Shown here in pieces: positions 11,180 to 26,705 of a stretch of 48,737 nucleotides of DNA. A program made the position numbers and the translations under genes. Position 1 is the stretch's first letter; the number at the start of each line of letters is the position of its first letter. Under the pieces are notes generated by a model. The model had not been told where the DNA came from. It saw nothing but the letters and a program-made list of their open reading frames with translations, and made no database searches. Source of the DNA: a virus; IMG/VR virus record IMGVR_UViG_3300030101_003614, positions 1 to 48,737 of that record; one strand, given 5' to 3'.

Positions 11180-11647
11180 TTAATCAACTTTAACCTCTTC
11201 AATGAAAACATCTTCATAAAGTTTTTTATTTGTGTAGTAATATTTAAACAACTCATTAAAATGTTTTTCAGATTTAACAATCTCTACATCTTCATGATAT
11301 GTTCTGAAATGTAGGCATAAATATTTAAACACTCTTTTGTGAGGGTAGGGCATATTAAAGCCACGCATATGACTTTCTATTTCTTCCTCTACTCTTTGTC
11401 CTAACAAAGACCTAAAGCTCTCTAGCAATCTTTCCTTAGACCAGTCATGACTAAGGCATAACGATCCATTAGACTCTTTACCATCTACCTCACATATTAG
11501 ATAAGACTTATCATCCTTATCAACAGTCACAATAAATTTAAATTCATGTGACACACCTTTCTTATCCTTTCTTTTTTTAGTGAAGGTCAAGACTACTTTC
11601 TCATTCAAGTAGTCTTCACCAACTCTATACACAGATACGTTACTCAC
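11180..11647 (-). CDS. Hypothetical protein, last gene of leftward operon
   Basis: The 155-residue product starts with GTG, backed by a strong AAGGAGG six bases upstream, and overlaps the previous gene by 8 bases. It has an N-terminal beta-rich half (VVLTFTKKRKDKKG, EFKFIVTVDKDDKSYLICEV) and a charged helical C-terminal half. I do not recognise a family. Position in an operon of small unknown proteins suggests an early host-interaction gene. Confidence 0.7.
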   Translation of the reverse strand: MSNVSVYRVGEDYLNEKVVLTFTKKRKDKKGVSHEFKFIVTVDKDDKSYLICEVDGKESNGSLCLSHDWSKERLLESFRSLLGQRVEEEIESHMRGFNMPYPHKRVFKYLCLHFRTYHEDVEIVKSEKHFNELFKYYYTNKKLYEDVFIEEVKVD

Positions 11648-11924
11648 TTTTATCCTCCTTTCTTTTCTGATCTTTTTCCCAATGATATTTTATAATATCC
11701 CATTGTCTTTTTCCTACCTCAAGAAAGTCAACATTCTCTTGTAATCCTTTTTTGTGTACAAGCCTACGTCTGTATTCCGACATATCTCTTAGATAATGTC
11801 TGTATTCATAATTCCAAAAGTAAGCTATACCCATATAGTTGGGCGTTCCAACAAAAGACTTATCTAACAAAAGTAATTTACTGAAAGCCTCAAAGGTGAT
11901 AGTGTTTAAATTTATCTTACTCAT
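11640..11924 (-). CDS. Hypothetical protein
   Basis: A 94-residue, Tyr- and Arg-rich helical protein (GIAYFWNYEYRHYLRDMSEY, RRRLVHKKGLQENVDFLEVG). GGAGGG lies five bases before the ATG. It overlaps both neighbouring genes by 8 bases. No known domain. Confidence 0.65.
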   Translation of the reverse strand: MSKINLNTITFEAFSKLLLLDKSFVGTPNYMGIAYFWNYEYRHYLRDMSEYRRRLVHKKGLQENVDFLEVGKRQWDIIKYHWEKDQKRKEDKSE

Positions 11925-12129
11925 CAGAACCCTCCTCTCTAGCTACGATTCTAATAGTATCCCATACAATCTCATCAACACCAGAGTTATTAAAAACTTT
12001 ATCTAGTACATTGTAAGATTTATAACCACTAAACTTAAAGCCTAGGTCTTTAACATCATCTTCGTGAAATAATCTATCCACGTAATAGCCATGATCTTTT
12101 AAAACCTTCTTTGCTTGATCAACATTCAT
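11917..12129 (-). CDS. Hypothetical protein (70 aa)
   Basis: I start this gene at 12129 (MNVDQAKKVLKDHGYYVDRL) because AAGGAGG stands six bases upstream; the longer in-frame start at 12183 would overlap its neighbour by 65 bases. The product begins with a helix (DQAKKVLKDHGY) and has a C-terminal EIVWDTIRIVAREE segment. Function unknown. Confidence 0.65.
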   Translation of the reverse strand: MNVDQAKKVLKDHGYYVDRLFHEDDVKDLGFKFSGYKSYNVLDKVFNNSGVDEIVWDTIRIVAREEGSDE

Positions 12130-12610
12130 TGCTAACCTCCTTTCTTTCAGAAAAATATTTAGTAGCAGGATCTTCAATCTCACTAGCTATCTTAAAAGAA
12201 ACTCTAAACACAGACTCGTATCTATCATAGAGATCATTGTAATCATCTTGAGCCTCTTCCGTAAACCTTGACTCACCATCAACAGTTTCATAAGTATACT
12301 CACCATATCTAGCCTCCACTACATCAGTAGCTAAATCAGAAATAACTCGCATCCATGTACTATTATCAATATATTGAGGTTCAACCTCCTCTACCTCTAA
12401 ATCGCAATCAGAACGTAAACCCTCTATGTATTTAACTCTATATTTATTTTTGCTAACAGAGTCACACAGCTCTTGCATTTGATCAACATCGTCACCAGCC
12501 TCCCAGCCTTTACCAAATAATTGATCAGCAAGTTTTTCTAAATCATTACTACAGACAAAATCATTAGTGCTAAAGTAACGACCTTCTTCAATTTTAAACT
12601 TACTCATCAT
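12119..12610 (-). CDS. Acidic hypothetical protein
   Basis: The 163-residue product is strikingly acidic, with Asp/Glu clusters throughout (DDVDQMQELCD, DCDLEVEEVEPQYID, EEAQDDYNDLYDRYE). Two ATGs in a row (12610, 12607) follow AGGAAGGGGGG; the spacing favours the second. Strong negative charge in an early phage protein is compatible with a DNA mimic that blocks a DNA-binding host enzyme, but charge alone is weak evidence. No enzyme motif seen. Confidence 0.65.
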   Translation of the reverse strand: MMSKFKIEEGRYFSTNDFVCSNDLEKLADQLFGKGWEAGDDVDQMQELCDSVSKNKYRVKYIEGLRSDCDLEVEEVEPQYIDNSTWMRVISDLATDVVEARYGEYTYETVDGESRFTEEAQDDYNDLYDRYESVFRVSFKIASEIEDPATKYFSERKEVSNEC

Positions 12611-12956
12611 TACCCCCCTTCCTGTAAAAATCTAAATACATCTTCTGTATTTTATTAGGCAGGCGAGTCATACTAACCCACTTCCAATTACACAGAGTAT
12701 CGTCAACATCAATCAACACTTCTCCTTCTTTTTTAAGTGTTTTCATTTTGTTTTCTATTTCCTCTTCAGTATATGTACCTTGAGTAAATTCATCATAGAC
12801 TGACTCTTCAGCAAGACAAATATCTAAACCATCTACAGGATTATAATCTTTGTCTACCAAAACGTAGTCAGTTTCATATAATTTAATTTCTCTAGGAGAG
12901 ACGAACATGTTCTTCATGTCTAGCATCTCTTCTATTGTTTCAAATTGTTTGTTCAT
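12600..12956 (-). CDS. Hypothetical protein after first intergenic RNA element
   Basis: The 118-residue product is acidic and has no known domain. VLIDVDDTLCNW near its C-terminus looks like HAD motif I, but the protein ends too soon for a HAD fold. There is no Shine-Dalgarno sequence; instead the ATG is preceded by AACTTAATAAA and, further up, by the bulged hairpin at 12978-13035. It overlaps the next gene by 11 bases. Confidence 0.65.
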   Translation of the reverse strand: MNKQFETIEEMLDMKNMFVSPREIKLYETDYVLVDKDYNPVDGLDICLAEESVYDEFTQGTYTEEEIENKMKTLKKEGEVLIDVDDTLCNWKWVSMTRLPNKIQKMYLDFYRKGGNDE

Positions 12957-12977
12957 TTTATTAAGTTAAAAAAATCT

Positions 12978-13035
12978 GCAAAATTGCATTGAAGGTAGGA
13001 GGGGTAACGATCCCCTCCAAGTTCCATACTACCTT
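12978..13035 (-). promoter_or_regulatory. Bulged-hairpin RNA element, copy 1
   Basis: Read on the plus strand: palindrome-like GCAAAATTGC (12978-12987), outer arm AAGGTAG (12992-12998), inner arm GAGGGG (12999-13004), loop TAACGAT, CCCCTC (13012-13017), an 11-nt bulge (13018-13028) and CTACCTT (13029-13035). Copy 2 at 13998-14052 has the same 7-bp/6-bp/7-nt/11-nt geometry with different paired bases. It begins right after a stop codon and ends about 20 bases before the SD-less start at 12956. Confidence 0.7.
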
Positions 13036-13036
13036 T

Positions 13037-13519
13037 TTATTTGACAAAGTATGAGTTAGCACACCATCTGCCACAATCCCATATATCTCTATGTTCACCA
13101 TTGATAACAGCAGTTAAATGATTTCTTGTTAAGAATATATAAGACTTGTTGTGATCCACATCAACATATTGCAGTCTTTTCTTTCTTTTAACTTCTCTCA
13201 GTAAAGGCATATCATTATGATCATGAATTAATATTCCATTTTCATCCTCAGCCTCATCATGTTGTATATGATATTGAGGTTTTTGTTTTACAAATCCTAG
13301 CTCCTTTAAATAAGGTTCATATACCCTTTCTTCATTTGGGAAATCACCTTGATCTAAAGCTCTCTCAAAAAGGTCTTTCATAACCTTCTTGTAGTCTAGA
13401 CCACTAGCGATACTTATCGCTCTAATAACACAATCACCTACTTTGTGTTTCTTTGTTGTCAGAGGAAAATATCTGTATCTACCTCCGTCATCTTTGATAA
13501 ATTGTTTTATGTTACCCAT
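13037..13519 (-). CDS. Probable papain-like cysteine protease
   Basis: The 160-residue protein shows a likely C-H-D catalytic set: GDC30VIRAISIASGLDY near the N-terminus, then NH134LTAV and a following RDIWDCG (D145 or D148). Cys at the start of a helix after GD, and His in a hydrophobic strand followed by a DxWD turn, are typical of small phage papain/C39-like peptidases. The target is unknown; an early gene of this kind could process or disable host proteins. GGAGG lies six bases before the ATG. It overlaps the next gene by 8 bases. Confidence 0.6.
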   Translation of the reverse strand: MGNIKQFIKDDGGRYRYFPLTTKKHKVGDCVIRAISIASGLDYKKVMKDLFERALDQGDFPNEERVYEPYLKELGFVKQKPQYHIQHDEAEDENGILIHDHNDMPLLREVKRKKRLQYVDVDHNKSYIFLTRNHLTAVINGEHRDIWDCGRWCANSYFVK

Positions 13520-13979
13520 TGATAGCCTCCTCTCTAATCATAAACCTTAAAGCCTCATCACCAACAGCATCTTTATCATATATACTATTCTCTAATAACT
13601 CACCATCTAATGGTATAATTGACTTGTTTTTAGTATTAATTATTTTCACGCCAACTTGAACTAAATTATCACGAGCATCTTTGTCGTGCCACATAACTTC
13701 ATAAAGGTAGCCTTGACGTTTGTCAATTATTTTAGTACCAACTTCTACGTTTTCACCTAAAACTCTTTTAAGTTTAAACTTCTTTTCCTCTCTAACATAA
13801 GGATGTATCTCTACGACATATCCTTCTTTCAACATTTCAGAGATTACGTAATCTCTATCTTTAGATTTACACCAATTATGCAAATCCCATTTACCGTCCC
13901 TGTGTACGCTATATTCAAGGCGATTATTTTTACTCTTATTTCTATGTGGAGTAAAGACACATTTTTTATTATTATTCAT
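13512..13979 (-). CDS. Hypothetical basic protein after second RNA element
   Basis: The 155-residue product starts with a basic segment (MNNNKKCVFTPHRNKSKNNR), followed by a probable beta-barrel-like stretch (VGTKIIDKRQGYLYEVMWHD). I do not recognise a family. It has no Shine-Dalgarno sequence; AACTTAATTTATAACT precedes the ATG, downstream of the bulged hairpin at 13998-14052. Confidence 0.65.
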   Translation of the reverse strand: MNNNKKCVFTPHRNKSKNNRLEYSVHRDGKWDLHNWCKSKDRDYVISEMLKEGYVVEIHPYVREEKKFKLKRVLGENVEVGTKIIDKRQGYLYEVMWHDKDARDNLVQVGVKIINTKNKSIIPLDGELLENSIYDKDAVGDEALRFMIREEAING

Positions 13980-13997
13980 AGTTATAAATTAAGTTGT

Positions 13998-14052
13998 GCA
14001 AAATTGCGAAGCTAGGGGAGGAAACGATCCTCCCTTGCAACCATTCTAGCTT
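13998..14052 (-). promoter_or_regulatory. Bulged-hairpin RNA element, copy 2
   Basis: Plus-strand reading: GCAAAATTGC (13998-14007), AAGCTAG (14009-14015), GGGAGG (14016-14021), loop AAACGAT, CCTCCC (14029-14034), 11-nt bulge (14035-14045) and CTAGCTT (14046-14052). The outer arm overlaps the stop codon of the upstream gene (14051-14053). Compared with copy 1, the paired bases change while pairing is kept; the AACGAT part of the loop and GCAAAATTGC are conserved. Confidence 0.7.
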
Positions 14053-14554
14053 AATAGTAGACGTAAAAGTTTTTGTCTGATTTGTTATAGGCTATATCTA
14101 TTATCATTTTTCTCTTAACCTCATCCCCTTTACTATATGCCTTAACAACATCTCTAAACTCACACGCATCTTTCTCATTATCAAAAATTCTATTAGTAGT
14201 CCATGAAGGATCAACATTAACCATAGGATATCTCATGCTCAACATATCTTCTTTCTGTTCGTCTTTGGTTTTCCAAGTCTTAACAACAAGTCCATACATA
14301 TAATCTAAAAAAGTTTTTCTGTTAAACTCATCAAGATTTAAATACCAAGGTATAAACACATCTCCTGCGTTGTCTACTTTTTCCATTGACATTATACTCC
14401 TAAGTTTCTTAATTAAATACTTAGCAGTACCCTCATCAAATTTAAATGCTTGCTTTATTTCAGTTTCGCTAAATCTATGTACAGAATAAGCGATAATATC
14501 AGCCATACCATCTGTGTAGGCTTTGTGATCTAATTTATTAGTTGAATTGTTCAT
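14051..14554 (-). CDS. Hypothetical protein, first gene of leftward operon
   Basis: The 167-residue helical protein (AYTDGMADIIAYSVHRFSET, EGTAKYLIKKLRSIMSMEKV) matches no family I know. The AYSVHRFSETEIKQAFKFDE part could be an HTH-like helix pair. It is read away from the control region at 14555-14842 and is therefore probably among the earliest expressed. There is no Shine-Dalgarno sequence; AACTTAACAATTTTACA precedes the ATG. Confidence 0.7.
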   Translation of the reverse strand: MNNSTNKLDHKAYTDGMADIIAYSVHRFSETEIKQAFKFDEGTAKYLIKKLRSIMSMEKVDNAGDVFIPWYLNLDEFNRKTFLDYMYGLVVKTWKTKDEQKEDMLSMRYPMVNVDPSWTTNRIFDNEKDACEFRDVVKAYSKGDEVKRKMIIDIAYNKSDKNFYVYY

Positions 14555-17180: not shown

Positions 17181-20100
17181 ATGGCTAATGGTAAAAAAAA
17201 TAAATTCTCTATTGATCTAGGATTTAATGTTACAGATCAGCCTTCTTTATCAGAACAAACATCTGATCTACCAGATACAACTAATTTAAATTTTGATTTT
17301 TCAAGACCTATAGATAGGGTAGATATGAATTTGCCTAGTTATAAATCTGGTGAGTCTACATGGTATCCAACTAAATATTTTTTAGAAGGAGTAGAGCAGG
17401 GTTATAAAGGTATAGAAGGAGGATGGAATTACCTTCAAACTCTAGATGGTGATTTAAGTTCATTTGATAAATTAGAACTATTAAAAGAGTTTGAAAAATC
17501 CTTACAAGATGCTCCACCACCAGCAGAAGATTTTTTATCAGTAAAAGGTTTAGGACAGTTTCTTGGACAATTAGTACCTTCTGCTTTAACATCATTAGCA
17601 GGAGTAGGAACGGCATTTGTTACTAAAAATCCATACATAGGAGGTGCAGTAGCTAGTCTAGGTTTTGGAGGATTAGCAGTTTCTTCATTTGGTCAAGGAA
17701 TGAAAGAATATGATACATATAAATTATCTAAAGGTGAAGACCCATTTAATACAAAAGCTGATATAAATTTAAGATACGGTCAATCATCTGTCAATGAAAG
17801 AAAAATTATTGGAGCTACATATGGTGCTTTTGAATTTATTGGTGAGACAATTCCTTTTGTTAAGTTTGTACCTAAAACATTTAGAAATCTAGCAGTACGA
17901 GGTGCTGGAGATAAGATAATGAAAAGATCGTTTCATCCAGAATTATCTGATGAATTTATAGAAAGTGCAAATAAATCATTTATAAACTTTGCTAAAAAAA
18001 ATAATGCTAATAAAAAATTAGCTACTAAACTTTTAGGTCTTGGATCATTAGAAGGAGCTGGAGAAGTTGTTACTGAAGTAGGTCAATCATTTGGTGATTA
18101 TTTAATTACTGAAGACAAGACTGCATTTGACAACATAGCACAAGAATCTGGTAAAGCATTTTTAGGAGGATTACTTATGGGTACAGGCTTAGGGCGTGTA
18201 TCATATGGAGCTCAAAATAACATGAATAAGCAAAGAAGAGAGAATCAACAAAACTTATTTTTTACTGAGCATGATGATAAATTTCAAGAAATAGTAAATA
18301 TTAAAGAAAAAGACGATGGGTCTAAAGAATTTACTTTGATGGATGCTTATGGAGACGTTACACCAAAAGTCAAAGATACAGAGATAAAAGGTCAGATAGT
18401 AAATCTATCTAACGATCAGTTTAATGCTATATTGAAAAGTAAACAAGATGATATAAACCTACAAGATGAAGCCTTTATCTACAATAACAACTTTGAGTTA
18501 GAACAGCAAAAAGAAAAACTTATAGACTTAGGAAAATTTGTAAACTCGCAACAGAAAAAAGGTGAAGAAACAAATCCTGTAATAAACATAGCAAACATAA
18601 ATGGGGATGATATAGTAATAACAGGAAGAGGAGATGCAGATAGTAACATATTGTTTGGTTTTAAGCTAAGTGAATATTCTGAAGGAGGAACTGCTAATGT
18701 AGAAGTATTTAGAACAGATCAGATAGAGAACAATGAAATAAAATCCGTGAATGTTGATGAAGCTACAAGTCTAATAGAACAACAAAAGAAAAAAAATATA
18801 GAGATAGTAGAATCTTCTTCAAGACCCGTTATAGGACAAAAGTTTAATATAGATAATAAAGAATGGAAGGTAGTAGGTTCATCTGCTAATGAGGTAAGAA
18901 TACAAGACAAAGATGGTGATGTAGAGACGTTAGATATAGCTCAGTATACAGAATTGAATACTGATACGGATGGATCAATGCAAGAAAACACAGAAACCAC
19001 TGGTGCAACTATTTCTTTAGATCAAATTCAATTTAATGAGGATGGAAACATTATTCCAGAAATTAAACCAAAAGATGCTGTAGCTGAAAAATTTGAAGTA
19101 GGTAAGAAAACATTCAAAGTTAAATCACTAAATAAAGACACAGGATCAAGAGAATTATCAGAGGTATACAAAACACAAAAGACAGCTCAAAAGTATGCTG
19201 ATTTACTTAATGAAGAGTATGGTAATCAAACCTTTGAAATTGAGGACAGAACTGATAAGAATGATCCTCTGGCTAAAAACAATTTTATCATTGTTGCTAA
19301 GCCTAAGATTAATGATAATCAGATAAAGAAAATAAAAGCTAAAGCAAAAGAGATACAGGCAAAAGAAAAAGTCTTTAGTCCAGCCGCAGATGATGTTCTG
19401 AAAGCTATAGAAACTAATCAAGGCAAGGAGCAGGCAGATATATTTAAGGCTGAGTATGATAGGCTAGTAGAAAAGACCATACAAGCAAGACAAAAGAAAG
19501 AAAAAGCTCCTAAAGTCAAAGGAGAAAAGGTTTATCATGGATCACCTACTAAGATTACAGGAAATACAATAAAAAGAGGTAGTGAAGAAGCAATTTTTGT
19601 TACGCCACAAAAAGAATATGCTAGTATTTATATGGGTACATCGGATGATGGTACAATAACAGAATTAACATTGACTAAAAACAAAATATCAAAACTTTTT
19701 GATTTAAGAAACCCAAAACACGTAGAAAAATTAAAAGAAGGGTTTATAAAAAACAATGAACAACTAGAGGTTGAATATGATTCTAAAGAATCTGCTTTAA
19801 GAGACTATGATAATGCTATAAAAAGCATGAGAGAATCTAGTAGAGAAGGATTGAATGATTGGGCAACTGGTGGTAATTACATGGCACAAATGGAAAATGC
19901 AGGATTTGAAGGAGCAATTTTTTCTGAAAGACCTAATGTTATAAGTTATGCTTTATTTGACAAAGAAATTACAGTTAGTAAGCCACGTGAGACAGTTAAA
20001 ACTAAAAAAGTAACAAAGAAAGAAACTAAAAAGACCACAAGTGAGACAAAAACTAAGAAAAAAGTGTCTCAAAAACCTAAAGTTGTAATTAAAAAGGTTG

Positions 20101-23100
20101 ATCCTCAAATAAAAATTAAATTTTCAAGAGAATTTTTCCAACAATTACCACAAGTAGACGAAAAAAGAGACAAAGGTATGTACTTTACAAGGGTAGTTTC
20201 ACCTTTAAACAAGAATCAAGTAAAAAAAGTAGAGACAATAATCAATAGGATCAAAGGATCATGGAAAAACTCACCTAATACCATCGTATATCAGTCATTA
20301 GACGATTACAGATTAGATAATGGACAGGCTAACGTAGACAAATTCACAAATGCTTTCTACGACCATGATAATGATCAGATCGTGTTCTTCGCTGACATGT
20401 TTACTGACGCAGGAAAGGTACAAAAAAAATTCTATCACGAGACAATAGGACATCAAGGACTCAAAGGTATTTTTTCTGACAAAGAATTGAATCAAAATTT
20501 AGATAGTGTATTTGCAAAACTTGATCCAAAAAACATTACACTCCAACAAATAGTATTTAGTTATCATCATCATTCTTTGGACAACTCATTAATTTTTGAT
20601 CCTAAAAAGAATTATCTCAATGAGGTTAAACCAAATGGATTTTCTTTGACTCTTCAAGACAAAAGAGATATAGCTGAAGAATACATAGCAAATGAGGCAG
20701 AAAAAGTTGAAGTTAGGGCTACTACAAATCGTTTAGTAAAACTTTTTAACACCTCAATACAAAAACTTACAGGAAAAAAACCAAACTTGCTAGATAAGGA
20801 GGTTAAGGAGATCATACAGGCATCAAAACAATATTTAAAGGTAGGGGATCAGTACGTTAATAAAAATGCCGTAAAACAAGCTACAGCCAATAATTATAAT
20901 GTAGCTGGAGGTAAGGATACAAAAAAGGCATCTTCATCTAGAGTATTACAAAAAATTAAACAAAATAGAGATTTTAGAAGAAGTCAGCTAGCTAGTCAAG
21001 TAGAGATTATAAATGATTCTATAGATATACTTGAAAAAGATTACAAGAAAGGCAAAACAGTAAACACCTCAAAAGGTAAAGATGTGGTTTCTATGAAATT
21101 AATAGAAAACTTACTTGGCAAAAACAATAAAGCAGATGAACAATATTTAAAACTTGCGAATATAATTAAGGACTACAATCAAGTCAAAGGATCGTATTCT
21201 GAAAACATTACAGATATTAATGAAGCTAAACAAGTATTTGATGAAATCAAATTAGATATAAAGTCAAATCTTTTATTTATATACAATAGTATTGATCCAG
21301 ATATAAGAAACATTTCCAAACTATGGTATGATTCTTCACATTCTACTATAGCTAAAAAATTCTCTGATGAATATGGTATTACAAGAGATCAAGCGTCTGG
21401 TATTATTGCGGTTATGTCACCACAAAAAGATTGGTTTAGAAATATAGGTTTAGCAGAAAGAGTTTTAAAAATAGCAATAGGTAACAAAGGATATGCTTTT
21501 GATCAAAACATGGCTAATTACATTTTAAATTCTGTAGATGCAAAAGGCAATAAAATATTTTTAAAAAATTTAAAAACTACAGAAAGAAAAAAGAAAGTAA
21601 ACAGTTTAGTAGGAAAAAAGATACAACAACTTGATGGTACAGATGTAGGACTTTTTATCAGAGCTTTTGATTGGGAGTATTTAGGCGATAGAAGTTATTA
21701 TAATTATTCGCCTACAGGAGATGTAATTGGTAAAGTAAAAACAAAATTAGGATTAGATTCTAAAATAGCTTGGGGATCAACAGGAGAAATAGCTAAAGCT
21801 GTAAGTATTATACAAAACGGATCAAAAGAAAATATATCTGATCAGCTAGGTGATCAACATAAAGTTAGAAGTTTTTATAATAACATATCTGACCCTAAAG
21901 ATGTAAATTCAGTTACCATAGACACACATGCTATTGCATCTGCATATCTATTACCACTTAGTGGAAGTAGTCCAATTACTTTACTTGGTTTAGGAGGCTC
22001 ACCATCATCTTTAGTCACTGGTGTTAAGGGTAGCTATGGGTTAATAGCTGATGCATATAGAGAGGTAGCTACTGACCTAAAAATATTACCAAGAGAATTA
22101 CAAAGTATAGTCTGGGAAGGTATACGAGGTTTTTATAGCGACACATTTAAAAGAAATAAAAACAGTGTACTGCAAGTTACTAGAATATGGGAGGACTATA
22201 AACTAGGTAACATCAAAGACAAAAAAGAAGTATTTAAAAAACTCAAAGAAATAGGTGGAGACTTCAATAATCCTGTATGGCTAGAGAATGTACTTAACGG
22301 AGACAATACTCAAGTAGAACAAAAGGCTATAGATCAAGACCTAGCTAATTTAGATGTAGATGTATTAGAAGGGCAAGAAAATGCAGAAGCTGAAAAGGTA
22401 TTTAAACAATCTAGAGACTACGTAAACTCAGAACAATTTAAAAAATTCTTTGAGGGATCAACTGTAATCAATAGCGATGGATCACCTAAAGTAATGTTCC
22501 ATGGATCACCAGCTACAGATAATATTAACCAGATATGGTTCAATAGTAAGTATATAGGTCAAGGAAATGATCAGTTAGGTGCTGGATTTTACTTTAGTTC
22601 AGAGCCTATGGAGGCAGGTGCATATGCAGAAACTTATAAATTAGATGGTGCTTTGACAGATAGAATAAAAAGAAGAATTGCAGGGACTAAGTTTTCACCA
22701 GGGATTGTTCCTGTATATATATCTATCAAAAATCCTATGCCTAATATTTTTGCAACCACAAAAGAACAAGTAAAAAAATTAATATTAGCCTCACCTTTAG
22801 CTCAATCTAAAGATGAATATGTAAATCCTTTTGTGGATTGGTTTCCAGAATTTGGTGAACTAATAAAACAAAAAGATGGTTTAGATTACATGGCTGATCA
22901 AGTAGCAGATTCATATTCGGATTTCTCAGACAATGGTGCTAATATGATACAAACAAGACGCACTCAAGATCTTATTATGAATGACTTTTACGAAGGTGGA
23001 CAGTTAGCTCCAGTTATGTTAAAAGCAATTAAAGATATTTATAAATACGATGGTTACATACTTGATGAAAATATAGGTGATAGAAGAAAATTTACTGTAG

Positions 23101-26100
23101 TAGCATTTTTTCCAGAGCAGATACAATCAGCACTTCAAACAGACATACCAATCAACAATACACCTATAAAAAAATCTATACATATGGATTATCCATATAA
23201 TGAAAACAAAAGAGATAATCTTATCAACAAAATGTTAAATAGTTTATATCTCTTACCAGAGAATAAAAAAATAGGATATGGAGAGTTGGTAAGACATTTT
23301 GTGCAGTATACAGGATATGACATACCGATAGGTAAATGGTTAGGTATTAACGATAAAATTAAAAACAAAAAATTGTTGCCATCTCAAATTTGGGATATTA
23401 TATCTGAACAACAGATTGACGTATTAGATTTAACACCAAACTCAAATAGCAAATTGTTGGTATTATCCAAAAAATACAATAAACAACGTAACGAAGAAAA
23501 TGAATCGTTTATTGATAGTAGTCTTGATTTTTATATAAGAGGAGACATAGTTGAAAGAACTTTAATACTTCTCGCAGGAAAGGATGTATCTAAAAATATT
23601 GACGTTGTGACAGCTCATAAAAAGCTGATAAAGTATGCTACATTAAACAACATGGATAATATAATATCTACAGATATTAAATCTTTAAATCAAATTAAAA
23701 CCACTCATGATTTTAAAGCTCCTATATCTAAAAAAAGATTTGAAACACCAACAGGATTTGAAACTTATTACAATCTAGAGTTAACTCCTGTACTCAAAAG
23801 ATTATCACTTAAAGAAAGCAATATAAGTCAATCACTTGATTTAGAGCTGACAACAGGAGTGAAAAAAAGTTATGATGAAAAAAGATGGCTACTTCAAGAT
23901 GATTTATTATTTCTAAAAAGACTACAAAATGAAATAGAAGAAAGAACAGGAAAAAAGATCAAAGATTATAATAATGCGTATGTTCTTGAAAATTTAAGCA
24001 AAGGTAAAATACTTAATTCTTTTGAAAAGTTTGAATTTGAATACGAAACACCTTTAAAAAACGCAATAAGTAATATTGTGAATGATAATCAAAATATCTT
24101 TTTTCAAGACATAAACGATTACGTATATGCAAAACACGCCTTAGAGAGAAATAAAATAAAACCTTCTGGTATGTCTAATGAAAAGGCTATTGAAATAGTC
24201 ACCGAGTTTGAAAAAACAGTATCTAAAAAACAAGTAAATAGTCTGATAGATGTTATAAAAGACATAAACAGATTTTACGTACAGTTAGCATATGATAGTG
24301 GACTAATTACTAATGAGAGATATAATGTTATGTTTCCAACGAAAAAAGGAGGTAAAAAACAAATGTTTGATTTTTATGTTCCACTGAGAGGTTTTGAAGA
24401 ATCAGAAACAGATAATTCAATATTTGTAGATTTAAATAAAAAAATGAAAGGTAGGGTTTCTAAAGCAGATAGTCCTCTCGCATATTTATTAGCATCAGCT
24501 CAAACTGTAATTACACAGGCAGAAAAAAATAAATATAAATTAGCTTTATACAATTTACTTTTAGAGAACCCAGATTCTAAATCTTATGAGATTAAAAACT
24601 TGTATTACAAAGAAGTAGATGGAAAAATTATAGAGGATGATGTCAAAGGAGATAAAGGTAAATTAACAATATCTGAAAAAGATTATAAGCTAGGAAAACA
24701 AATACAAAGGTTTCAAATGTCTGGTGATCCTAGACTTACTACTATTAGTGTGAAAGTTAATGGTCAGAGAAAAGTTATTGAATTTTTTGGAGATGATAAT
24801 ATAAAAATAGCTCAAGGAATTAATAAATACATAGACCCAGAAAGCAAAGCAGGTAAGTTTCAAAAATTAGCAAGTAGTGTTGGTGATTTCGGTGGACCAT
24901 TTTCTTTGTCTAGAATTAATGGTGTTATGAGAAGTTTCTTTACGCAATACTCTCCAGAATTTATACCTATTAACTTCTTTAGAGATATTACTGCTGGATT
25001 AATAAATATTACTGTAGATTTTGACAGCTCTACAAGAAACGCTGTTTTAAAAGAAACTTTTAAATCTATGGGAGCTTTAAAAGGATTTTTTGCAGGAAAC
25101 AAAAGAAAATTTCCAAAAGGCGAAGAAGGAGATATGTTAAAATTATTTATAGAAAACGGAACTAGGACTGGATATTCACAACCTAGAACTGTTGATGAAC
25201 TTAAAAAAAGTTTAAATGATTTTGATAAAATATTAGAGCCTACTGACAAAGGAATAAAGTTTCAGACGGTAAAAAAATTACAAGATGGTAGTTATACTTT
25301 TGGTAAGTCTATTCTTGATCTTTTAGATCAAACTAATTTAATATTAGAAAATACTGTAAGATATTCTGCTTTTAAAGTTTTAGTTAATAAAGGTGAGTCA
25401 GTAGATACAGCGAGTAAATATGCTAAAGACCTAACAGTAAACTTTAATAAAAAAGGTATGTTAACAAATGACATAGCTAAAAATTATTTGTTCTTTAATG
25501 CAGGAGTGCAAGGTGTTGAAAGAATTACTAGACCATTTTTCACTGGTAAAGCAGGTAGAGCAGCAAGTGTTTTTGCTACCATTGCAGCAGCAGGATTTTT
25601 TAATCAAATGGCAGTGAGATTGATCGCAGGAGAAGATGAGGATGGTAAATATTTTTATGATAAATTGCCAGAATATGTAAGAAATAAAAATATAATAATT
25701 GTAAATCCTTTGTGGCTATTGGGTCTTAGTGATGTTAAATTTAAAACTTTTCCTTTACCTTATGGTTTTAATGCTATATATAGTGTTTCTGATCCTATAG
25801 TAAGATATGGATTAGGATACCAAAGTTTTGCATCTTCAGCAGCAAGCATGGCAGATAATGTTGCAGAGTCTTTTTCACCTCTAGGTTCTGTTAATTCAGA
25901 AAACAGAACATTTGGAGAATCTGTTTTATCTTATATTGCTCCAACAGCTTTACAGCCAGTTATAGAATTAAGTCAAAATAAAAATTTTATGGGATCAAGA
26001 ATTTACCCAGAAGATAATCCATTCTCAAAAGATGAAAAACCTGGCTTTAGAAGTGCATACTCTAATAGTGCAGATTACGCTGTATTCATATCTAAAGCCT

Positions 26101-26705
26101 TCAATAAACTTAGTGGTGGAGATAAATTTGAAAAAGGTTTTTTTAGTCCGAAGCCTCAACAAATAGAATACTTAGTAAATCAATATTTAGGTGGTGTTGG
26201 AGCTACAGTAAATAGATCTGTAAAAATCATAAACAACACAATATCTGGTAGACCTATAATAGAGGATGTAAATGATATACCTATTGTTAGAAGATTTGCT
26301 ACACAATCAGAAAAATATGATGAATATGGTGTTTATTATGATATGTTAAACTTTATGAAACAAGCTCAAGATAGAGAAAGAAGTTTTAGAAAAGACATCA
26401 AAGAAAGAGAAATGTCTAGAAAAGAGTATAATGAAAAAATGAATGAGAAAAAACCAGATGCTTTTAATTATACTTTAAAAGAATTAATAAGACTTGAAAA
26501 AAGAACTAGTGGTATAGTTGAAAGAGTTAAAAAATTAAGAGACGATAGAAATAAGGCTATAGATAATGATAATTATGAATTAGCACAGAAAAAAGAGGCT
26601 GATATCTTAAAACAAATGAAAAAATTCAATAAATTTGTTACTAAGGGAAAATATCAATCTTTACCGTCTGGAGAAATTTTACAAAACCTCTTAGGTGAAG
26701 AGTAA
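17181..26705 (+). CDS. Giant polyvalent ejected protein with two ADP-ribosyltransferase-like domains
   Basis: At 3174 residues this is the largest gene, about a fifth of the window. Regions seen: Gly/Ala-rich hydrophobic helices (about 118-175 and 280-345); a first ART-PolyVal-like domain (about 780-935, starting KVYHGSP); a Lys/Thr-rich linker; a zincin-like segment with YHETIGHQGLKG near 1084; a domain with MSPQKDW and DTHAIASAYLLP (about 1370-1650) typical of phage polyvalent proteins; a second ART-like domain (about 1770-1990, MFHGSP, GAGFYFSS, VYISIKNPM); an LPD38-like part with YSPEFIPINFFRD and YLFFNAGVQG (about 2570-2800); and a C-terminal coiled coil. Proteins of this type are packaged and injected with the DNA to act on host targets. 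It starts four bases after the previous stop. Confidence 0.85.
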   Translation: MANGKKNKFSIDLGFNVTDQPSLSEQTSDLPDTTNLNFDFSRPIDRVDMNLPSYKSGESTWYPTKYFLEGVEQGYKGIEGGWNYLQTLDGDLSSFDKLELLKEFEKSLQDAPPPAEDFLSVKGLGQFLGQLVPSALTSLAGVGTAFVTKNPYIGGAVASLGFGGLAVSSFGQGMKEYDTYKLSKGEDPFNTKADINLRYGQSSVNERKIIGATYGAFEFIGETIPFVKFVPKTFRNLAVRGAGDKIMKRSFHPELSDEFIESANKSFINFAKKNNANKKLATKLLGLGSLEGAGEVVTEVGQSFGDYLITEDKTAFDNIAQESGKAFLGGLLMGTGLGRVSYGAQNNMNKQRRENQQNLFFTEHDDKFQEIVNIKEKDDGSKEFTLMDAYGDVTPKVKDTEIKGQIVNLSNDQFNAILKSKQDDINLQDEAFIYNNNFELEQQKEKLIDLGKFVNSQQKKGEETNPVINIANINGDDIVITGRGDADSNILFGFKLSEYSEGGTANVEVFRTDQIENNEIKSVNVDEATSLIEQQKKKNIEIVESSSRPVIGQKFNIDNKEWKVVGSSANEVRIQDKDGDVETLDIAQYTELNTDTDGSMQENTETTGATISLDQIQFNEDGNIIPEIKPKDAVAEKFEVGKKTFKVKSLNKDTGSRELSEVYKTQKTAQKYADLLNEEYGNQTFEIEDRTDKNDPLAKNNFIIVAKPKINDNQIKKIKAKAKEIQAKEKVFSPAADDVLKAIETNQGKEQADIFKAEYDRLVEKTIQARQKKEKAPKVKGEKVYHGSPTKITGNTIKRGSEEAIFVTPQKEYASIYMGTSDDGTITELTLTKNKISKLFDLRNPKHVEKLKEGFIKNNEQLEVEYDSKESALRDYDNAIKSMRESSREGLNDWATGGNYMAQMENAGFEGAIFSERPNVISYALFDKEITVSKPRETVKTKKVTKKETKKTTSETKTKKKVSQKPKVVIKKVDPQIKIKFSREFFQQLPQVDEKRDKGMYFTRVVSPLNKNQVKKVETIINRIKGSWKNSPNTIVYQSLDDYRLDNGQANVDKFTNAFYDHDNDQIVFFADMFTDAGKVQKKFYHETIGHQGLKGIFSDKELNQNLDSVFAKLDPKNITLQQIVFSYHHHSLDNSLIFDPKKNYLNEVKPNGFSLTLQDKRDIAEEYIANEAEKVEVRATTNRLVKLFNTSIQKLTGKKPNLLDKEVKEIIQASKQYLKVGDQYVNKNAVKQATANNYNVAGGKDTKKASSSRVLQKIKQNRDFRRSQLASQVEIINDSIDILEKDYKKGKTVNTSKGKDVVSMKLIENLLGKNNKADEQYLKLANIIKDYNQVKGSYSENITDINEAKQVFDEIKLDIKSNLLFIYNSIDPDIRNISKLWYDSSHSTIAKKFSDEYGITRDQASGIIAVMSPQKDWFRNIGLAERVLKIAIGNKGYAFDQNMANYILNSVDAKGNKIFLKNLKTTERKKKVNSLVGKKIQQLDGTDVGLFIRAFDWEYLGDRSYYNYSPTGDVIGKVKTKLGLDSKIAWGSTGEIAKAVSIIQNGSKENISDQLGDQHKVRSFYNNISDPKDVNSVTIDTHAIASAYLLPLSGSSPITLLGLGGSPSSLVTGVKGSYGLIADAYREVATDLKILPRELQSIVWEGIRGFYSDTFKRNKNSVLQVTRIWEDYKLGNIKDKKEVFKKLKEIGGDFNNPVWLENVLNGDNTQVEQKAIDQDLANLDVDVLEGQENAEAEKVFKQSRDYVNSEQFKKFFEGSTVINSDGSPKVMFHGSPATDNINQIWFNSKYIGQGNDQLGAGFYFSSEPMEAGAYAETYKLDGALTDRIKRRIAGTKFSPGIVPVYISIKNPMPNIFATTKEQVKKLILASPLAQSKDEYVNPFVDWFPEFGELIKQKDGLDYMADQVADSYSDFSDNGANMIQTRRTQDLIMNDFYEGGQLAPVMLKAIKDIYKYDGYILDENIGDRRKFTVVAFFPEQIQSALQTDIPINNTPIKKSIHMDYPYNENKRDNLINKMLNSLYLLPENKKIGYGELVRHFVQYTGYDIPIGKWLGINDKIKNKKLLPSQIWDIISEQQIDVLDLTPNSNSKLLVLSKKYNKQRNEENESFIDSSLDFYIRGDIVERTLILLAGKDVSKNIDVVTAHKKLIKYATLNNMDNIISTDIKSLNQIKTTHDFKAPISKKRFETPTGFETYYNLELTPVLKRLSLKESNISQSLDLELTTGVKKSYDEKRWLLQDDLLFLKRLQNEIEERTGKKIKDYNNAYVLENLSKGKILNSFEKFEFEYETPLKNAISNIVNDNQNIFFQDINDYVYAKHALERNKIKPSGMSNEKAIEIVTEFEKTVSKKQVNSLIDVIKDINRFYVQLAYDSGLITNERYNVMFPTKKGGKKQMFDFYVPLRGFEESETDNSIFVDLNKKMKGRVSKADSPLAYLLASAQTVITQAEKNKYKLALYNLLLENPDSKSYEIKNLYYKEVDGKIIEDDVKGDKGKLTISEKDYKLGKQIQRFQMSGDPRLTTISVKVNGQRKVIEFFGDDNIKIAQGINKYIDPESKAGKFQKLASSVGDFGGPFSLSRINGVMRSFFTQYSPEFIPINFFRDITAGLINITVDFDSSTRNAVLKETFKSMGALKGFFAGNKRKFPKGEEGDMLKLFIENGTRTGYSQPRTVDELKKSLNDFDKILEPTDKGIKFQTVKKLQDGSYTFGKSILDLLDQTNLILENTVRYSAFKVLVNKGESVDTASKYAKDLTVNFNKKGMLTNDIAKNYLFFNAGVQGVERITRPFFTGKAGRAASVFATIAAAGFFNQMAVRLIAGEDEDGKYFYDKLPEYVRNKNIIIVNPLWLLGLSDVKFKTFPLPYGFNAIYSVSDPIVRYGLGYQSFASSAASMADNVAESFSPLGSVNSENRTFGESVLSYIAPTALQPVIELSQNKNFMGSRIYPEDNPFSKDEKPGFRSAYSNSADYAVFISKAFNKLSGGDKFEKGFFSPKPQQIEYLVNQYLGGVGATVNRSVKIINNTISGRPIIEDVNDIPIVRRFATQSEKYDEYGVYYDMLNFMKQAQDRERSFRKDIKEREMSRKEYNEKMNEKKPDAFNYTLKELIRLEKRTSGIVERVKKLRDDRNKAIDNDNYELAQKKEADILKQMKKFNKFVTKGKYQSLPSGEILQNLLGEE

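Follow-up and report, generated by a model that had tools for sequence, protein, structure and literature searches.

Repeated tRNA-like elements lacking an anticodon arm at gene junctions of double-stranded DNA phages: a possible punctuation signal for mRNA processing

Results

Genes and hairpins at the locus

The stretch of DNA analysed here, referred to as the window, comprises the 48,737 nt of IMG/VR virus record IMGVR_UViG_3300030101_003614 (positions 1 to 48,737) and derives from a phage that is nearest to Bacteroides phages. A leftward operon, encoded on the minus strand from position 14554 to 11180, begins with gene A (14051-14554), followed by gene B (13512-13979), gene C (13037-13519; phrog_3754, function unknown) and gene D (12600-12956). 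A protein search for relatives of the gene C protein found none in viral contigs. Elsewhere in the window, positions 17181-26705 encode a polyvalent protein of 3174 aa in which the domains LPD38 and DUF7178 are present.

The RNA of this operon contains two bulged hairpins. Copy 1 (13035-12992, minus strand) reads AAGGTAG-TATGGAACTTG-GAGGGG-(ATCGTTA)-CCCCTC-CTACCTT and lies between genes C and D, and copy 2 (14052-14009, minus strand) reads AAGCTAG-AATGGTTGCAA-GGGAGG-(ATCGTTT)-CCTCCC-CTAGCTT and lies between genes A and B; in both, the 11-nt bulge is on the 5' side of the RNA. The original prediction had described two hairpins with identical stem, loop and bulge geometry, each beginning at the stop of one gene and ending shortly before the start of the next. 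Re-reading of the minus-strand RNA bore out this geometry, and the placement is likewise as described at both copies. The last base of the gene A TAA is also the first base of the element 2 core of 12 bp, and element 1 begins 1-2 nt beyond the TAA of gene C. The next ATGs are located about 27-36 nt downstream, with about 27 nt between element 2 and the start of gene B and about 33 nt between element 1 and that of gene D.

The two copies were also said to share an identical flank. This flank, GCAAAATTGC, is indeed common to both and corresponds to a second small hairpin, and the window contains just two copies of the sequence GCAATTTTGC, one behind each bulged hairpin. The second hairpin is TGCA-ATTT-TGCA after element 1 (12977-12988, minus strand) and a weak GCA-ATTT-TGC after element 2 (13998-14007, minus strand).

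Most internal genes of the leftward operon have a strong Shine-Dalgarno sequence, including gene C. The genes that follow the elements, B and D, have none, and are preceded by an AT-rich AACTTAA leader like that of the first gene in the operon. A leader resembling that of a first gene, together with the missing Shine-Dalgarno sequence, is what would be expected if the elements create new mRNA starts. A clear Shine-Dalgarno sequence is almost confined to the internal genes of this operon (11180-13519, minus strand) and is scarcely seen elsewhere among the approximately 45 genes of the window. Ribosomes of Bacteroidia read the Shine-Dalgarno sequence mainly when they are without bS21 (PMC9976891).

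The two window copies by themselves are little proof of a functional structure, since their folding energies are only moderately unusual in comparison with shuffled sequences (z = -1.64 and -2.80). A chance origin is excluded by a family-wide structural scan, in which both copies scored at least 14.0, while 3.19 Mb of Markov-shuffled sequence gave a single match of at least 12 and none of at least 12.5. The covariance-model scores are 51.3 bits (E 2.9e-12) for element 1 and 48.5 bits (E 2.3e-11) for element 2.

The fold resembles the acceptor and T-arm half of a tRNA

The fold was identified as tRNA-like from the canonical T-arms found in copies of the contig L187, which decided the matter, and of other phages. 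L187 holds seven copies within about 2.2 kb, and these mostly exhibit textbook tRNA T-arms, such as GG-TTCGAAT-CC, GAG-TTCAAAT-CTC and GGGG-TTCGATT-CCCC, for which the window counterpart is GG-ATCGTTA-CC. In tRNA terms, the outer stem corresponds to the acceptor stem, the inner stem to the T stem and the 7-nt loop to the T loop, and the bulge, with its (T)ATGG(TA) letters, is a remnant of the D loop.

Element 1 extends from 13035 to 12990 in the 5' to 3' direction of the RNA. Its acceptor-like stem pairs 13034-13029 with 12998-12993 (plus an optional A13035-U12992 pair), and is followed by the D-loop-like bulge TATGGAACTTG (13028-13018), a T-stem (13017-13012 with 13004-12999) enclosing the T loop ATCGTTA (13011-13005), and a 3' end with discriminator T at 12992 and CA at 12991-12990, all on the minus strand. 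Correspondingly, element 2 extends from 14052 to 14007, also on the minus strand, with an acceptor-like stem of 14051-14046 and 14015-14010 (plus an optional A14052-U14009 pair), the bulge AATGGTTGCAA (14045-14035), a T-stem of 14034-14029 and 14021-14016, the T loop ATCGTTT (14028-14022), discriminator T at 14009 and CG at 14008-14007. The T loops of the window have A54/U58 instead of U54/A58.

In general terms, the acceptor and T stems form a stack of 12 bp, capped by a T loop of 7 nt that contains U55-C56, and a bulge of 10-12 nt contains AUGG (G18-G19). At the 3' end there is a discriminator base, with C-A or C-U after it in most copies. The equivalents of G18, G19, G53, U55, C56 and C61, which form the elbow in tRNA, are invariant in 56 aligned elements. 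The G18-G19 letters would be able to contact U55-C56, and an elbow contact of this kind is what we infer for the elements. The D stem, the anticodon arm and the variable region are absent, with only 10-12 nt separating the acceptor and T stems. The 3' end does not encode CCA, as C74 is present in 57 of 71 elements and C75 in one, and the tails are mostly ACA, ACT, TCT or TCA.

The original prediction had not noticed the likeness to tRNA or the existence of a family with many copies, and had not counted the second hairpin as belonging to the element. Several other identities were considered and set aside. A pseudoknot between bulge and loop (AUGG with UCGU) explains the letters less well than an elbow (GG with UC). 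For a small open reading frame within the hairpin, with its ATG in the bulge and the residues ...GDR[YF]P..., the frames and stops vary among copies while the pairing is kept. No core matching a self-cleaving ribozyme or riboswitch was recognised, and the ends AAGGTAG...CTACCTT and AAGCTAG...CTAGCTT are not the RYYYAAC / GTTRRRY cores of an integron attC site. A hairpin promoter for an N4-like giant vRNAP was rejected as well, the 3174-aa protein matching LPD38/DUF7178 instead.

A family of elements in phages

An exact-pattern scan of IMG/VR with ATGG-N7-G-N2-GGATCGTT-N-CC identified a related phage, G001 (IMGVR_UViG_3300030110_003917), in which both elements are kept in the same order. All 44 nt of element 1 are identical to the window, and element 2 differs by a few bases. 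The second hairpins are present at the same spots, as TGCATATGCA after element 1 and AATGCA-ATTT-TGCATT after element 2. Identity is 60-95% for most structural genes of the two phages, and G001 has a homologue of gene D with a conserved N terminus. On the other hand, the two genes between the elements, B and C, have no homologues in G001 (no blastp match at 1e-3 in either direction). Since these genes have been replaced while both elements stay, the elements outlast their neighbouring genes, and they may mark or aid module exchange. In place of this two-gene cassette (window 13037-13979 versus L092 12467-13403), G001 carries two other genes that are unrelated to B and C.

With less stringent patterns and a first covariance model, prophages of Dysgonomonas and Sphingobacterium and further viral contigs were added. 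A second covariance model, R2, was run on 100 sources and gave 74 matches, 71 of them distinct, with a maximum of eight per phage. Operons of G007 and G008 have eight copies each and those of G009, G010 and G013 four each, so that most gaps of some operons hold one. Bacteroides phage BF1-TP2, which is distantly related to the phage of the window (TerL 36.5%), contains a plausible member directly before the Erf gene (872-918). Homologues of the large terminase of the window are annotated as 'tail spike protein' in three Bacteroides phages (PQ571277, PQ571269 and PQ571263).

Among the named phages examined, no element was found in T4, SPO1 and phiKZ. Weak matches in crAss001 and in Cellulophaga phages phi17:2 and phi38:1 lie in or beside tRNA clusters and were excluded from the count. 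A bacterial scan gave matches in 8 of 296 Bacteroidota genomes, and as these are few and mostly weak, several of them being ordinary tRNA 3' halves, the element is mainly phage-borne.

Covariation and controls

The prediction that paired bases change together while pairing is kept was supported across the family. In the R2 alignment 89.5% of stem cells are paired, compared with 51.9% when the letters of the 3' side were shuffled and 43-54% when the partners were slid. Double-sided changes in stem cells number 336 (104 expected), and the covariation score is 0.924 versus 0.209 in the control. All stem pairs covary except the invariant closing pair G53-C61. A covariance model was thus built and searched, as had been suggested, and it returned homologues with covariation, so that the claim of a structured RNA is now strongly supported.

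Since the search patterns had fixed bulge and loop letters, two extra controls were run. With a stem-free pattern, at least 11 of 12 pairs were formed in 33 of 107 matches, where 0.43 would be expected. In a scan for geometry only, with all bulge and loop letters free, 30 of 73 matches in 322 kb of phage sequence had both the bulge GG and U55-C56, compared with 0 of 25 in shuffled sequence; the 322 kb had been chosen for holding elements, and many copies inside were not pattern matches themselves. The T loop has U54-A58 in 54 rows and A54-U58 in 15, an exchange partly imposed by the search patterns and hence suggestive rather than proof. Taken together, the family and its tRNA-like fold are well supported, and the secondary structure of the elements is near certain.

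Placement at stop codons and the second hairpin

As in tRNA punctuation, the elements are found between co-directional genes and abut stop codons. An upstream co-directional stop ends within -10 to +6 nt of the first paired base in 38 of 72 elements, compared with 5.9% of random positions, and 15 elements share one or two bases with the stop codon. The median distance to the next ATG is 32 nt, with a spread of 0-149 nt. Phages with four to eight copies typically carry them in successive gaps between small genes.

Members in L248, L258, L310 and L311 are located outside gene junctions and may represent another use of the same fold. Phages of Streptococcus agalactiae (L408 4249-4660 and L310 5589-5800) have a cluster of odd tRNA-like RNAs beside annotated tRNA-Ser/Tyr/His genes, including an apparent nested RNA with two T-arms inside one acceptor stem. 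In L192, a DUF805b RNA (RF02914; 1565-1653, minus strand; 33.9 bits, slightly below a cutoff of 35.6) directly follows an element and precedes a repressor-like gene.

A second small hairpin often starts within a few bases of the element end. It is strong in 15 of 71 elements (1.5 expected in shuffles), and in related phages its stems show compensatory changes around a constant loop (ACGAC-AATTAA-GTCGT, AGGAC-AATTAA-GTCCT and GTGGC-AATTAA-GCCAC).

Searches of catalogues and literature

No family in Rfam 15 matches the elements, at the gathering threshold or at permissive E-values, the only tRNA matches being separate whole tRNA genes. When the 44-56-nt elements were compared by blastn with 50,697 phage records only chance-level matches were obtained, and L354 and L358 gave no blastn match to phages. 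ARAGORN found no tRNA at the elements of the window, and reported one apparently spurious tRNA-Phe over an L432 copy (11638-11709, minus strand), which suggests that elements may hide in databases as spurious phage tRNAs. No description was found in the literature on tRNA-like RNA in phages; open-access papers were covered, and an earlier description is possible. Within the searched literature, a repeated anticodon-less intergenic element in phages appears undescribed.

Discussion

A proposed mechanism of processing

A processing site, by analogy with the RNase III hairpins of T7, had been suggested as one possible function beside a protein-binding site or a riboregulator. A processing site is still the best guess. 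The analogy is not the best fit, because the acceptor/T-arm fold points to RNase P, RNase Z or another factor recognising tRNA. The best reading of a natural RNA that keeps the features of a minihelix, drops the rest of the tRNA and lies in intergenic positions is that of a punctuation signal. We give roughly an even chance to the elements being such tRNA-like signals, cut by host RNase P and perhaps by RNase Z.

According to the proposed mechanism, G18-G19 of the bulge and U55-C56 of the T loop would form a tRNA elbow. Host RNase P would recognise the element, measure the 12 bp and cut at the 5' base of the stack, either at the upstream stop codon or immediately behind it. RNase Z might cut after the discriminator base. 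The polycistronic transcript would be split, and the downstream mRNA left with a small hairpin at its 5' terminus; after an RNase Z cut it would begin a few bases before this second hairpin. The 5'-terminal hairpin would slow 5'-end-dependent decay, and a 5' hairpin is a known way of resisting such decay. A ribosome terminating at the upstream stop would unfold the element, and cutting would in this way be coupled to translation. Owing to the overlap with stop codons, cutting would destroy some stops unless it is timed by translation, and the fact that the presumed cut falls inside the stop codon in 15 elements counts against the cutting model. The members outside gene junctions and the A54/U58 of the window T loops likewise speak against it.

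Bacterial RNase P cuts acceptor/T-arm minihelices at the canonical site and binds the T-loop region, with the 12 bp serving as a ruler to the cleavage site and with G19, G53 and A58 being of importance (PMC11143913; PMC10465520). The 12-bp helix, the T loop and the letters for a D/T-loop contact described for RNase P substrates (PMC11143913) are all found in the elements. Their tails lack the 3' RCC(A) motif, with whose RCC the E. coli RNase P pairs (PMC10465520). The lack of a full RCC is therefore a mark against strong binding of the E. coli type. Some forms of RNase P work without RCC. CC(A) stops RNase Z in some bacteria, and a tail that avoids CC(A) thus fits cutting by RNase Z.

The more general proposal is that many dsDNA phages, in different hosts, use anticodon-less mini-tRNAs after stop codons to enlist essential enzymes of host tRNA maturation, namely RNase P and perhaps RNase Z, for splitting polycistronic mRNA into individually protected messages. 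We hold this with slightly less confidence, a little short of an even chance.

Alternative explanations

The main rivals are ribosome-directed mimicry and a protein-binding or stabilising element, both without cutting. In the former, the element would be an uncut tRNA mimic whose elbow and stack are held on the ribosome, for instance at the L1 stalk/E site, so that the ribosome is retained for the next start. The L1 stalk contacts the elbow of tRNA, the element abuts the upstream stop with the next ATG at a median of 32 nt, and the genes after the window elements have no Shine-Dalgarno sequence. However, the distance to the next ATG varies widely (0-149 nt), many element-bearing phages have a Shine-Dalgarno sequence before the next gene too (e.g. 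L358), and the second hairpin is left unexplained, for which reasons we consider this explanation unlikely.

Much the same low probability is assigned to an uncut mRNA stabiliser or protein-binding site with a tRNA fold, which might serve, for example, as a barrier to exonucleases, as the carrier of a regulatory protein or as a binding site for an enzyme that modifies tRNA. Such a role would suit stems that are compact and stable and lie at junctions of the mRNA, and to our knowledge enzymes binding the T-arm are present in all hosts. Yet it offers no reason to keep 12 bp, a discriminator base and a C, which measure tRNA ends.

That the elements are tRNA fossils, or attachment or recombination sites left by gene exchange and devoid of RNA function, is improbable. 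The differing genes between conserved elements in the window and G001 would fit, as would letters that derive from, or converge on, tRNA; but strong two-sided covariation indicates selection on pairing rather than decay or mere homology, and a pattern of elements at stop codons, repeated from gap to gap within an operon, does not resemble integration scars. A still smaller probability is given to decoys that soak up host defences or toxins attacking tRNA. Phages do face tRNA-cleaving immunity, e.g. Cas12a3 (PMC12851939), and there are several copies per genome, but the elements lack the anticodon, where many such nucleases cut, as well as a CCA end, and decoys would not need to be placed in cis at stop codons. 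Equally improbable are hairpins processed by RNase III, like those found between the early genes of T7. These would account for intergenic hairpins in a phage operon but not for the invariant GG and UC, of which RNase III, as far as we know, has no need, and T7 RNase III sites are longer irregular duplexes without a tRNA signature.

Implications

With the elements, an RNA family built like a tRNA joins the parts known from phage mRNAs. Processing by RNase P would suggest that phages leave the maturation of their mRNA to a ribonuclease that their host could hardly lose or change, and the elements, if cut, would be natural counterparts of the minihelix substrates of RNase P used in the laboratory. 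The copies in prophages of Dysgonomonas and Sphingobacterium make the idea testable at once. Annotation programs miss the elements or may miscall them as tRNAs.

Comparison with known systems

The model substrates of RNase P (AT1, pATSer) also have a 12-bp acceptor/T stack and a T loop without an anticodon arm, and the RNase P RNA of E. coli cleaves substrates of this type at the canonical site (PMC11143913, PMC10465520). These are laboratory constructs with RCCA ends, whereas the phage elements are natural, have a D-loop-like GG bulge and NC[AU] tails, and are putative substrates. C4 antisense RNA of phages P1/P7, as cited in PMC11143913, is a phage RNA cut by host RNase P, but a single antisense RNA, while the elements are repeated, intergenic and tRNA-like.

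The tRNA-like domain of tmRNA resembles the elements in having an acceptor and T arm and a stemless D loop. It differs by a long insert with the mRNA module and by an encoded or added CCA, while only 10-12 nt separate the halves of the elements. The tRNA-like structures of plant RNA viruses (e.g. turnip yellow mosaic virus) are likewise viral mimics of the acceptor/T half, and such a structure is an RNase P substrate in vitro according to work cited in PMC11143913. They are 3'-terminal, single and often aminoacylated, in contrast to the internal and repeated elements in mRNA of dsDNA phages.

Finally, mitochondrial tRNA punctuation also places tRNA structures between genes and abutting stops, and the mitochondrial tRNAs, cut by RNase P and RNase Z, delimit the mRNAs (PMC4394434). 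Mitochondria use whole functional tRNAs, whereas the elements of phages, being without an anticodon, are unable to decode. Mimics of tRNA and tRNA punctuation are thus already known elsewhere, and it is the phage version that appears undescribed in the literature searched.
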